Assembly (NCBI GenBank): GCA_017453255.1
Contig: JAFTKN010000009.1
Location: 1 to 64,000 of the forward strand
Length of the DNA: 64,000 nucleotides
From: Clostridia bacterium
GTDB lineage: Bacteria; Bacillota; Clostridia; Oscillospirales; CAG-272
Direction of reading: 5' to 3'
Shown: positions 26,671 to 63,364 of the stretch, one piece after another
How the letters are laid out: each line of letters begins with the position of its first letter
Position numbering within the stretch: the stretch's first letter is position 1
Program-made: the position numbers and the translations under genes
The notes under the pieces: model-generated
The model's input: the letters and a program-made list of their open reading frames with translations, nothing else
Told to the model about the DNA's origin: nothing
Databases searched by the model: none

Positions 26671-26820
26671 GATTTTAAATCCTCTAAGAATGCCTCGTAG
26701 GACATATCCGAAATAGCCTTCCCTTGTGAGGGAAGGGGGACCGTCATCGACGGTGGATGAGTAGTAACTATTCTCTGATAGATTTCAAGTCCTCTAAGAA
26801 CGCCTCGTAGGACATATCCG
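26671..26820. repeat. Duplicated nadE 3' end around a palindromic repeat element
   Basis: Bases 26671-26710 repeat at 26781-26820 with 37 of 40 identities. The second copy is the coding end of nadE. Between them lies an element with two perfect hairpins: CCTTCCC...GGGAAGG (26717-26736) and ACCGTC-ATC-GACGGT (26740-26754), followed by GGATGAG. This resembles the dispersed palindromic repeats of gut Clostridia, such as those flanking the DUF559 gene at 62.8 kb. Confidence 0.75.
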
Positions 26821-28603
26821 ATGGCATTTGCAAATCATACTTACCTAAGGAAACTGAGCCTAAGCTGATTGCGTCAGGTGAGCAACAGCGCTTAAAGTGT
26901 TGAGTAAAAAAGCGCTTAATAAAAATTTCAAGCCACTTGTAAATAGTATCGCAATCAAAAATGCCTTCGAAATTCTTTACGGCAAGGTGATATATTTCTG
27001 ATGGAGCAAGGCTTTTACCTGCAAAATAGTATATAAAGAAATCGTGTAGCTCGTAAGGACCTACAATATCCTCAGTCCTTTGCTGTATTTCTCCGTCCTT
27101 GTGCGGCAAAAGCTCTGGAGAAACAGGAGTATCTAAAATATCATAAAGAATGTCGGCTACCTTTTTGTCAGCATTTTTTGCAAAATAAGCCACCACGTGC
27201 CTGATTAACGTCTTCACAATAGCGCTATTTACCCCGTACATTGACATATGGTCACCGTTATAGGTTGACCAGCCGAGAGCAACCTCACTCATATCTCCTG
27301 TGCCGATAACAATACCGCCTAAATCGTTTGCAATATCCATTAAAACCTGAGTTCTTTCACGTGCCTGTGCATTTTCATATGTCACGTTTCTGTTTTCCAT
27401 ATCATGTCCAATATCTCTTAGATGAACAGAAACCGCTTCAGCAATATTAACCTCTTTTAGAGTAACACCCAAGGCATTACAAAGCTCGGTCGCATTATTT
27501 TTCGTTCTGCTTGTTGTACCGAAGCAAGGCATAGTAACACAAACAACATTTTTTCTATCCCAACCAATTAAATCAGCACATAAAACGCAGGTAATGAGCG
27601 CAAGGGTAGAGTCAAGACCACCAGATATACCTAAAACACAGCATTTTGAATAGCTTGCAGTAAGCCTTCTTGCAAGAGCGTGGCTTTCCATATCAAGTAT
27701 TTTTTTAAGTCGTCTGTTAAGCTCCTTTTCGTCCTTTGGAATAAAAGGATTTTTACTTGTCTCTATATTTAAGCAAAGTTTTTTTGCAAAGCTTGAGTAG
27801 CTTTCAAATTTGCAACTTGAATTATTTGAAAAGCATTCAATTATCGACACGCACTCCCCATTTTTAGATTCAAACGGCAAGGCACTTGCTAAAATTTCGC
27901 CCCTTTGAGAAATAATATTGCTTGCTGAAAAAATTACATTAGAGCTTGATTCGTTTTCGCAAGGAGTACATAGCATATAAGCACAGCCAAGTGCTTCGCT
28001 TTTTTTCTTAGCATATTCAGTAGCTATTATCTCACTTGTAATTGTTTCATAAAGAGAGGTGGGATTGACAAGCACACTCGGTGTAGCGCTTAGCTGAATT
28101 TTACCACTACCTAAGAAAAATCCAAATTTGTTACCATTTTTCGTAGCTTCAAAATAATTTGAGAAATTAATTTTCTGATTAAGCAGATTGATTTCACCAT
28201 AAAAGCCCTCTGACAAGGCTCTTATGTGGCCTAAAGGAGATTTAATATCTATTGAATCATTATATATAGCACCAAGAATTTTACCATTTTCTATAATAAC
28301 ACCAGTACTGCATGTATTTTTGCCCTGCTTAACAGGCAATCCGATAATAGCTAAAACCGAGGTACCCTTAGTCTTGTTTAATATCTTTCCTAAGGCACTC
28401 TCACAGCTTCTTATAATAACGTCGTTTGATAGCATATCACCAAGGCTTGTACCACAAAGGCAAAGCTCTGGAAGACAGAGAACATCAACACCCTCACTAT
28501 CTGCACGTATAATCTCGTCGGCTAATAAATCACCATTATAGATAGGATTACCTAACTTAATTTCAGGTGATAAGCACTTAACCTTAATAAGCTCCTTTTT
28601 CAT
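26768..28603 (-). CDS. nadE: NAD+ synthetase with a probably inactive glutaminase domain
   Basis: A 611-residue two-domain enzyme that amidates nicotinic acid adenine dinucleotide to NAD+. The synthetase half is intact (SGGLDS P-loop at 327-332, TGDMSE). The N-terminal nitrilase-like glutaminase half keeps the Glu of LPELC (Glu46). Where the family has the nucleophile in a CED-W context, this protein reads FGFFLGSGK (160-168), and the usual Pro-Lys site reads IYND, so Cys and Lys appear lost. It may depend on free ammonia or another amidotransferase (inference). It is divergent from pncB of the same pathway. Confidence 0.9.
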   Translation of the reverse strand: MKKELIKVKCLSPEIKLGNPIYNGDLLADEIIRADSEGVDVLCLPELCLCGTSLGDMLSNDVIIRSCESALGKILNKTKGTSVLAIIGLPVKQGKNTCSTGVIIENGKILGAIYNDSIDIKSPLGHIRALSEGFYGEINLLNQKINFSNYFEATKNGNKFGFFLGSGKIQLSATPSVLVNPTSLYETITSEIIATEYAKKKSEALGCAYMLCTPCENESSSNVIFSASNIISQRGEILASALPFESKNGECVSIIECFSNNSSCKFESYSSFAKKLCLNIETSKNPFIPKDEKELNRRLKKILDMESHALARRLTASYSKCCVLGISGGLDSTLALITCVLCADLIGWDRKNVVCVTMPCFGTTSRTKNNATELCNALGVTLKEVNIAEAVSVHLRDIGHDMENRNVTYENAQARERTQVLMDIANDLGGIVIGTGDMSEVALGWSTYNGDHMSMYGVNSAIVKTLIRHVVAYFAKNADKKVADILYDILDTPVSPELLPHKDGEIQQRTEDIVGPYELHDFFIYYFAGKSLAPSEIYHLAVKNFEGIFDCDTIYKWLEIFIKRFFTQHFKRCCSPDAISLGSVSLGKYDLQMPSDMSYEAFLEDLKSIRE

Positions 28604-61629: not shown

Positions 61630-61891
61630 AGTTTTTTCTCCTTTTTTAGATTTTTTAATACAAATTTTTGGAAATTTCTGCCAAAAATGGGGAAATTTCG
61701 TGAAGATAGCCCACTCAAACAATAGTAAGAGAGGGCTATACAAAATTAAACGAATATTGCCACGCTTTTTTAACACAATATGACAAGCTATTTGCCGTTT
61801 CAAACCGAATCGGTTCTATTCTCATCAGGCATAAAGCCTTGTGAGATAAGGCACTAATGGAAGCTTGTCACACAAAATATTGTGTGTTAGC
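61630..61891 (-). promoter_or_regulatory. Structured 5' leader of nrdD
   Basis: About 260 bases of untranslated RNA. A long closing stem joins 61862-61869 with 61782-61789 and continues, after a bulge, through 61877-61884 with 61772-61780. It encloses a GCCTT/AAGGC hairpin, an AACCG/CGGTT hairpin and TGCC/GGCA pairing. Two further hairpins follow: ATAGCCC (61706-61712) with GGGCTAT (61733-61739), and GAAATTTC (61671-61678) with 61692-61699, the last near the ribosome site. Confidence 0.6.
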
Positions 61892-61951
61892 GATATCATT
61901 CTATCATATATATTGTGTTTTGTCAATAGGAAATTTCACAATATCTTGTGT
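61870..61951 (-). promoter_or_regulatory. nrdD promoter with three NrdR-like boxes
   Basis: Minus strand TTGACA (61921-61926), 17-bp spacer, TAGAAT (61898-61903). Three 16-base sites resembling the NrdR box (ACACAATATATTGTGT-like) start at 61870, 61903 and 61936, each 33 bp apart. The middle one lies in the promoter spacer. NrdR is the ATP/dATP-sensing repressor of nrd genes in most bacteria; its gene is not in this window. Confidence 0.8.
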
Positions 61952-61957
61952 TTTTGA

Positions 61958-62776: not shown

Positions 62777-62834
62777 AAGGCTCCTTTTGCGTGAAACGGA
62801 AAGGGAGCTGTCACCGAAGGGTGACTGAGGGTTT
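62777..62834 (+). repeat. 58-bp palindromic repeat, copy 1
   Basis: Identical over 58 bases to 63307-63364. It contains a perfect hairpin GTCACC-GAAG-GGTGAC and an imperfect one CTCCTTTT...AAAGGGAG, and ends GACTGAGGGTTT. The wording is that of dispersed repeats in gut Clostridia. It lies 18 bases before the DUF559 start. Confidence 0.88.
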
Positions 62835-62852
62835 AAAATAAGAGGGCTAAAA

Positions 62853-63218
62853 ATGATAAAGAAGCATAATAAAGAACTGAAGCCTTTAGCTAAAAACCTT
62901 AGAAAAAATATGACAAGGGAAGAAAGACATCTGTGGTATGATTTCTTAAAGAATTATCCTATTCGAATTGACAGGCAAAAAATATTAGGTAAATATATAG
63001 TTGATTTTTATTGTGCAAGTGTAAAAATTATCATAGAGCTTGATGGTTCTCAGCATTATTTTGAGGACGGAGAAAAATATGATAGAGAGAGAACTGATTA
63101 TTTACAGAAAAACTTTGGTGTAACAGTAATTAGAATAAGTAATTTAGATGTAATGAAAAACTTTACTGGTGTATGCGATTATATTGACTATAAAATAAAA
63201 GAAAGGATAGAAAAATAA
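62853..63218 (+). CDS. DUF559 Vsr-like endonuclease-domain protein
   Basis: A 121-residue protein of the DUF559 family, related to very-short-patch-repair and other PD-(D/E)xK nucleases. The N-terminus has LAKNLRKNMTREERHLWYDFLKNY. The core has KILGKYIVDFYCASVKIIIELDGSQHY, with the expected active-site Asp and Glu, and ends in VTVIRISNLDVMKN. It is flanked by identical 58-bp palindromic repeats and followed by a diverged inverted copy. The biological role of the family is unknown; a part in moving or maintaining the repeats is a hypothesis. Confidence 0.88.
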   Translation: MIKKHNKELKPLAKNLRKNMTREERHLWYDFLKNYPIRIDRQKILGKYIVDFYCASVKIIIELDGSQHYFEDGEKYDRERTDYLQKNFGVTVIRISNLDVMKNFTGVCDYIDYKIKERIEK

Positions 63219-63221
63219 ACC

Positions 63222-63270
63222 AAACCACCCGACACCTATGGTGCCACCCTCCTTTAGAAAAAAGAGGGCT
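63222..63270 (-). repeat. Diverged inverted palindromic repeat
   Basis: CACC-TAT-GGTG and CCCTC...GAGGG hairpins in the opposite orientation to the 58-bp repeats, right after the DUF559 stop. The bases AAGAGGGCTAAA (63262-63273) also occur at 62840-62851, before the DUF559 start. Confidence 0.65.
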
Positions 63271-63306
63271 AAATGGTGAAAGCCGTTGTAAATAGAAGCT
63301 TTATCA

Positions 63307-63364
63307 AAGGCTCCTTTTGCGTGAAACGGAAAGGGAGCTGTCACCGAAGGGTGACTGAGGGTTT
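63307..63364 (+). repeat. 58-bp palindromic repeat, copy 2
   Basis: An exact copy of 62777-62834, placed 530 bp downstream and 17 bases before the PHP gene. Perfect identity argues for a recent duplication or ongoing conversion. Confidence 0.88.

Follow-up and report, generated by a model that had tools for sequence, protein, structure and literature searches.

The 64,000-nucleotide stretch of a Clostridia bacterium contig analyzed here, hereafter the window, carries near its right-hand border a DUF559 nuclease gene (62853..63218, forward strand) that encodes a 121-amino-acid protein with a Vsr/EDxHD fold and lies in the intergenic region between nrdG and a PHP-domain gene. Short structured repeats, which we call ends, adjoin the gene on both sides. 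The left end is a type T1 repeat (62777..62834, forward strand) consisting of hairpin 1, GCTCCTTT..AAAGGGAGC, hairpin 2, GTCACC-GAAG-GGTGAC, and the trailer TGAGGGTTT. Directly 3' of the DUF559 stop codon lies the opposite end, a diverged repeat of type T2 on the reverse strand (63222..63273), with a hairpin 1, the hairpin 2 GGCACC-ATA-GGTGTC, and the trailer GGGTGGTTT. Left end, nuclease gene, and inverted right end form a compact element of about 450 bp. An identical second T1 copy (63307..63364, forward strand), located in the leader of the PHP-domain gene, is read as a single extra copy. A relative, a single T3-type end (26715..26765, forward strand), is found 3' of the nadE stop codon; it comprises CCTTCCCT..AGGGAAGG, followed by GGACCGTC-ATC-GACGGT and the trailer GGATGAGTAG. 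Duplicated nadE 3'-end sequence borders this single end on both sides, as an outer copy (26671..26711, forward strand; 41 nt, 93% identical) and an inner copy (26781..26821, forward strand) that remains the coding copy. Elsewhere in the window, at 61875-61954, three ATATTGTGTTTT-like motifs with an exact 33-bp spacing precede the gene for anaerobic ribonucleotide reductase and are probably NrdR boxes.

A preliminary description of this DNA had reported two exact 58-nt repeats around a DUF559 gene, a perfect 6-bp hairpin (GTCACC/GGTGAC) in the repeat, a diverged inverted copy, a short repeated stretch, and a relative in the nadE tail. All of these are real. The short stretch is AAGAGGGCTAAA, present at 62840-62851 and at 63262-63273, the latter occurrence being the inverted copy's outer arm, and the repeat also possesses a longer neighboring hairpin that the preliminary description did not mention. 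What requires amendment is the layout: the association with the gene stands, but the left and right ends differ in type and are inverted, rather than being simple identical direct repeats. Folded as single-stranded DNA, the T1 repeat, the inverted T2 copy, and the nadE-tail repeat each form two neighboring hairpins and do so better than 200 of 200 shuffles (T1, z = -5.8, with 0 of 200 shuffles folding as well; the inverted copy, z = -3.2). The repeat core has two matches in the window, compared with 0.03 expected from shuffles. In the window's own genome, an exact-pattern search confines the T1 end type to this locus, with two copies, and finds a sister end type 11 times; searching with one type alone gives a misleading picture, given that the ends are of three types.

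DUF559 (PF04480, E = 8.6e-28) is the sole family that matches the protein in a domain search. A high-confidence structure model (pLDDT 91.5) most closely resembles 3hrl, itself a DUF559 protein (Z 14.9), followed by the homing endonuclease I-Bth0305I (Z 12.5) and Vsr (Z 10.8); low-scoring toxin chains in the PDB match list were rejected as chance matches. The model thereby predicts a Vsr-type PD-(D/E)xK fold whose active-site residues are E, D, H, and D, which places the protein in the EDxHD/Vsr-like superfamily. An alignment of 25 diverse relatives shows no variation at E24, D51, E62, D64, H68, D77, and R80 and contains no HUH motif. Because these residues are invariant and dN/dS between close pairs is low (0.03-0.23), indicating purifying selection, the enzyme has been kept working across copies.

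Across 29 genomes of the genus, the ends fall into three types built to one common plan of about 50 nt: AGCC or AGGC, hairpin 1, a short linker, hairpin 2, and a G-rich trailer. The consensus sequences are GGAGCTGTC..GACTGAGGG for T1, GGAGGTGGC..GACGGAGGG for T2, and GGGGGACC..GGTGGATGAGG for T3. The sequence of hairpin 2 varies freely while its pairing is kept: 99.3% of cells are paired, and there are 24 double changes, compared with 9.3 in shuffled alignments and nearly none when the partner is slid. Scored by the G.G, A.A, T.A rule of purine-motif triplexes, the trailer is the mirror of the hairpin-1 purine arm at 7.14 of 8.02 positions, as against 5.72 with trailers exchanged between ends and 5.38 with trailers shuffled, a fit that the shared ancestry of the ends inflates. 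Despite that inflation, the window's two ends satisfy the mirror rule each in a private way, the right end at 9 of 9 positions (arm AAAGGAGGG, trailer GGGTGGTTT) and the left end at 8 of 9 (arm AAAGGGAGC, trailer TGAGGGTTT). A hairpin followed by a mirror trailer is the design of the intrastrand-triplex (boxC/PIT) motif, and such a triplex is predicted for these sequences. Since the alignment of the three end types was too ragged for a covariance model, we relied on pattern searches with reversed-pattern controls. Single ends show no orientation bias relative to the host gene (27 antisense, 26 sense), and at three loci (L018, L055, L275) they stand in head-to-tail arrays with few bases between them, beside DUF559 or away from it.

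The gene and the ends are closely associated across the genus. DUF559 occurs in 22 of the 29 genomes, with up to 8 copies each at different loci; most of the clostridial genomes here are metagenome assemblies, whose contigs break at repeats. The end finder places an end beside DUF559 at 49 of 57 loci inspected, and ends on both sides in inverted orientation at 24; the background at these loci, farther from the gene, is 3 ends in 110,751 bp. Exact patterns locate 511 ends in the 29 genomes, at hundreds of dispersed sites, with zero matches to the reversed patterns, and ends per genome track DUF559 counts (rho 0.73, p = 8e-6). An evenly sampled set of 196 genomes of the class includes 22 with a strong DUF559 match (E below 1e-20), of which 19 carry T2 or T3 patterns; among the 174 others, 12 do (p = 1.5e-15). 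A few non-palindromic chance matches were left among these 31 repeat-positive genomes. An independent triplex finder detects its motif at 72 of 79 DUF559 loci in Clostridia and at 44 of 56 in the genus. Chance as an explanation of the association is rejected on these numbers. The preliminary description had staked its proposal on DUF559 genes usually having flanking repeats and on repeats being rarer in genomes that lack the gene, and both are found.

Among all fetched loci, 79 inverted pairs of ends were identified. DUF559 is enclosed by 54 of them, and in 52 of these the ends are separated by 361-423 nt; thus, the gene alone is enclosed. The other 25 include 23 with 28-125 nt between their ends, that is, gene-less pairs of about 110-220 bp. 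Unlike end types are paired in 66 of the 79. These data bear on the idea that some other enzyme moves the repeats and that DUF559 is captured cargo. Some genomes with repeats do have no detectable DUF559 gene, as that idea would have it. Nonetheless, no gene other than DUF559 recurs between the ends of the 79 pairs, the DUF559 stop codon often falls inside the end, and in several phyla DUF559 is linked in the same way to repeats of unrelated sequence (see below). We regard captured cargo as distinctly improbable.

Evidence for movement comes from the host DNA around the ends. Direct duplications of host sequence flank 26 of 94 end clusters (single or clustered ends), compared with 0 of 184 control positions. 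Clear cases measure 34 to 109 bp and abut the element; one longer match proved to be a tandem array. For full elements, at least 11 of about 46 possess duplications of 40-112 bp, and exact examples include 89 bp at a full element (L051) and 72 bp at another locus (L252). More than half of the full elements and most single copies have no detectable duplication, gene-less pairs have one in 1 of 9 cases, and the window's own DUF559 element has no clear one.

The comparison of empty sites proposed in the preliminary description was carried out, and empty sites exist alongside the long target duplications. The nrdG-PHP intergenic region is uninterrupted in two other genomes (G015, G018), and in a third (G003) a single T3 end interrupts it, bordered on each side by a copy of a 48-50 bp stretch. 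Likewise, the nadE end is uninterrupted in G017, G022, G026, and others; in G006, G014, and G025, a full element occupies it, with long duplications of 104, 89, and 109 bp, respectively. In the last three genomes (loci L177, L178, and L183), the nadE frame crosses the left end of the element to a TGA stop codon, which in G006 and G014 overlaps the GTG start of DUF559 (GTGA), so that translation of the nuclease looks coupled to that of nadE. Other recurrent targets are the gene 3' ends encoding RDILEEYKNR and KYE..DYSKKK, each in two or three genomes (L276, L014, L060; L242, L252). Gene ends may be favored as targets because long duplications that contain the stop codon leave the host gene whole.

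Recurrence of targets raises the question of homing. According to this explanation, DUF559 is a homing endonuclease that cuts conserved gene ends lacking it, homologous repair copies it in, and the repeats are passive. Its closest solved relatives include I-Bth0305I, of the EDxHD homing family, which shares its fold and its E/D/H/D active-site pattern, and the nadE end is occupied by full elements in three genomes and by a single end in a fourth. However, target duplications are not created by homing itself, gene-less single ends insert with equally long duplications, and ends are scattered over hundreds of sites. Moreover, unlike I-Bth0305I, which is intron-encoded and has separate DNA-binding parts, the DUF559 gene is free-standing and bounded by repeats, and its product possesses little beyond the catalytic domain; unlike homing endonuclease elements generally, it resides in no intron or intein and lies between genes. 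Homing is, in our judgment, unlikely. The same duplications address another account, namely that the repeats are ordinary regulatory hairpins, either terminators or mRNA stabilizers, that adjoin DUF559 incidentally. The repeats are intergenic and often lie 3' of stop codons, as such hairpins do, but the association is far above chance in every cellular set examined, an Rfam search matches the repeats to no family, and the flanking duplications, which mark insertions, refute regulation as the full account. That account is scarcely credible, while a secondary regulatory role for the repeats is possible.

Taken from comparison of sequences, the association of gene and ends, the inverted and mostly unlike pairing, the covariation of the hairpins, the duplications, the empty sites, and the purifying selection point to a mobile repeat system that probably works in the manner of REP/RAYT with an unrelated nuclease, its small element consisting of a left end, the nuclease gene, and an inverted right end. 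The preliminary description had suggested that the nuclease mobilizes its own repeats. The association, duplications, and empty sites support this suggestion, and from them we infer, with good confidence, that DUF559 is the mobilizing enzyme. The trailer could fold onto hairpin 1, supplying a third strand. The most parsimonious scheme is that the nuclease would recognize the folded end, likely as single-stranded DNA, and cut the end and/or the target. Host repair synthesis would then insert the copy. PD-(D/E)xK enzymes hydrolyze DNA and, to our knowledge, are not known to join strands; insertion must therefore lean on host repair. Two opposite-strand nicks 35-110 nt apart, once filled in, could generate the long duplications, a route that we put forward only tentatively. 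Gene-less pairs and single ends would be non-autonomous derivatives.

The parallel with REP/REPIN sequences and their RAYT (TnpA-REP) proteins (PMC3116915, PMC6006769), drawn in the preliminary description, holds in part. In both systems, short hairpin repeats are dispersed singly and as inverted doublets, a single small nuclease gene has its own repeats on either side, and non-autonomous copies outnumber the gene. The parallel fails at the enzyme, which is not an HUH/tyrosine (Y1) protein, as RAYT is, but a Vsr-fold PD-(D/E)xK nuclease, and at the repeats: in place of the GTAG or CGTC foot tag of REP, the conserved feet are AGCC/AGGC and a G-rich trailer, and the ends consist of two hairpins and a third-strand trailer, with long target duplications. 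Terminal inverted repeats around a gene, together with target duplication, also recall insertion sequences. Here, though, the 40-112 bp duplications are much longer than is usual for insertion sequences, and DUF559 alone lies between the ends, with no DDE, HUH, serine, or tyrosine transposase. IS200/IS605 elements are similarly minimal, with hairpin ends around one gene, and their transposase is of about 150 amino acids, but they use HUH chemistry, have non-triplex ends, and are not known to duplicate their targets. Finally, the short gene-less elements with the same inverted ends resemble MITEs.

The system is not confined to Clostridia, as the preliminary description had implied. In a plasmid and replicon collection, a finder that uses no clostridial end types detects the triplex motif no more than 260 bp from the gene at 21 of 27 DUF559 loci from outside the class (chance about 0.11 per locus; p = 2e-15). 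Positive loci include those of Sinorhizobium, Shinella, Azospirillum, Sphingomonas, Sphingobium, Methylobacterium, Klebsiella, Photobacterium, Neisseria, Deinococcus, Synechocystis, and others. In Picosynechococcus and Pseudanabaena, which the finder misses, hairpin-plus-G-run repeats are visible by eye on both sides of the gene. Divergent DUF559-like genes on phage contigs have the motif at only 2 of 39 loci with the same finder. Because DUF559 and triplex-type repeats are also paired in other phyla, the data suggest one ancient system. As to individual cases, the ends on Sphingomonas and Sphingobium plasmids (Alphaproteobacteria; L356, L367) share the clostridial T3 linker design, GGGGGACC-hairpin-GGTGGAGGGG. 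Separately, the chloroflexotal Ktedonobacteria brp13 encodes, at 3.1 Mb (L173), a clostridial-type DUF559 that is 53% identical, with a hairpin repeat downstream; the sequence suggests transfer between phyla.

In E. coli, boxC (TM_ECO) repeats form a stable intrastrand triplex, demonstrated in solution for TM_ECO, and exist as two types; close inverted pairs were found five times, every time with one of each type, and a mobility gene was never found near boxC/TM repeats in that survey (Holder 2015, PMC4666352). The clostridial ends share with boxC/PIT the hairpin, the mirror third strand, and a wide bacterial spread, and their unlike pairs largely obey the same two-type inverted rule. They differ in that a further hairpin separates hairpin 1 from the third strand, a feature also present in Sinorhizobium and Sphingomonas, and, in contrast to boxC as described, they adjoin DUF559. 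In E. coli K-12, a canonical boxC (L346, 1705-1743) follows the DUF559 gene ycjD, the end of which is overlapped by a degenerate inverted boxC-like copy, an adjacency with a chance of about 0.004. This boxC was located by eye and by exact match; the automatic triplex finder missed it because boxC carries a mismatched triplet. BoxC is present in 5,375 of 5,426 E. coli genomes and persists in lineages without ycjD.

The ycjD region itself occurs in 3,362 of the 5,426 genomes, as one copy at one place, which would suit a different role for DUF559: that of a host housekeeping nuclease whose task is to process the structured repeats beside it, without moving them. A Vsr-like fold under purifying selection fits such a role too, but the many copies per clostridial genome, at different loci with their own ends and target duplications, do not, and we consider it very improbable. 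Returning to mobilization, we put at about even the chance that the DUF559 family mobilizes intrastrand-triplex repeats in bacteria at large, E. coli boxC and the cyanobacterial, rhizobial, deinococcal, and neisserial repeats among them. Hundreds of genomes contain triplex-type repeats (boxC/PIT), which have been described since the 1990s; a one-gene partner, recurring in several phyla next to repeats of unrelated sequence, makes their origin directly testable, including in E. coli K-12, and may explain the spread of the long-puzzling boxC repeats in that species. If correct, this partnership would provide a function for DUF559, whose structure 3hrl was solved without one, and would add to bacterial transposition an enzyme class that is neither DDE, HUH, serine, nor tyrosine, specifically, a hydrolytic nuclease acting with host repair. 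In the open literature searched, we found no report of a link between DUF559 and triplex repeats.

In the fabI-sapF gap of E. coli (L346, L371, L372), ycjD with boxC alternates with the eefRABCD efflux operon (reported in PMC12817139), and in one strain (L372) the 3' end of ycjD has been lost.
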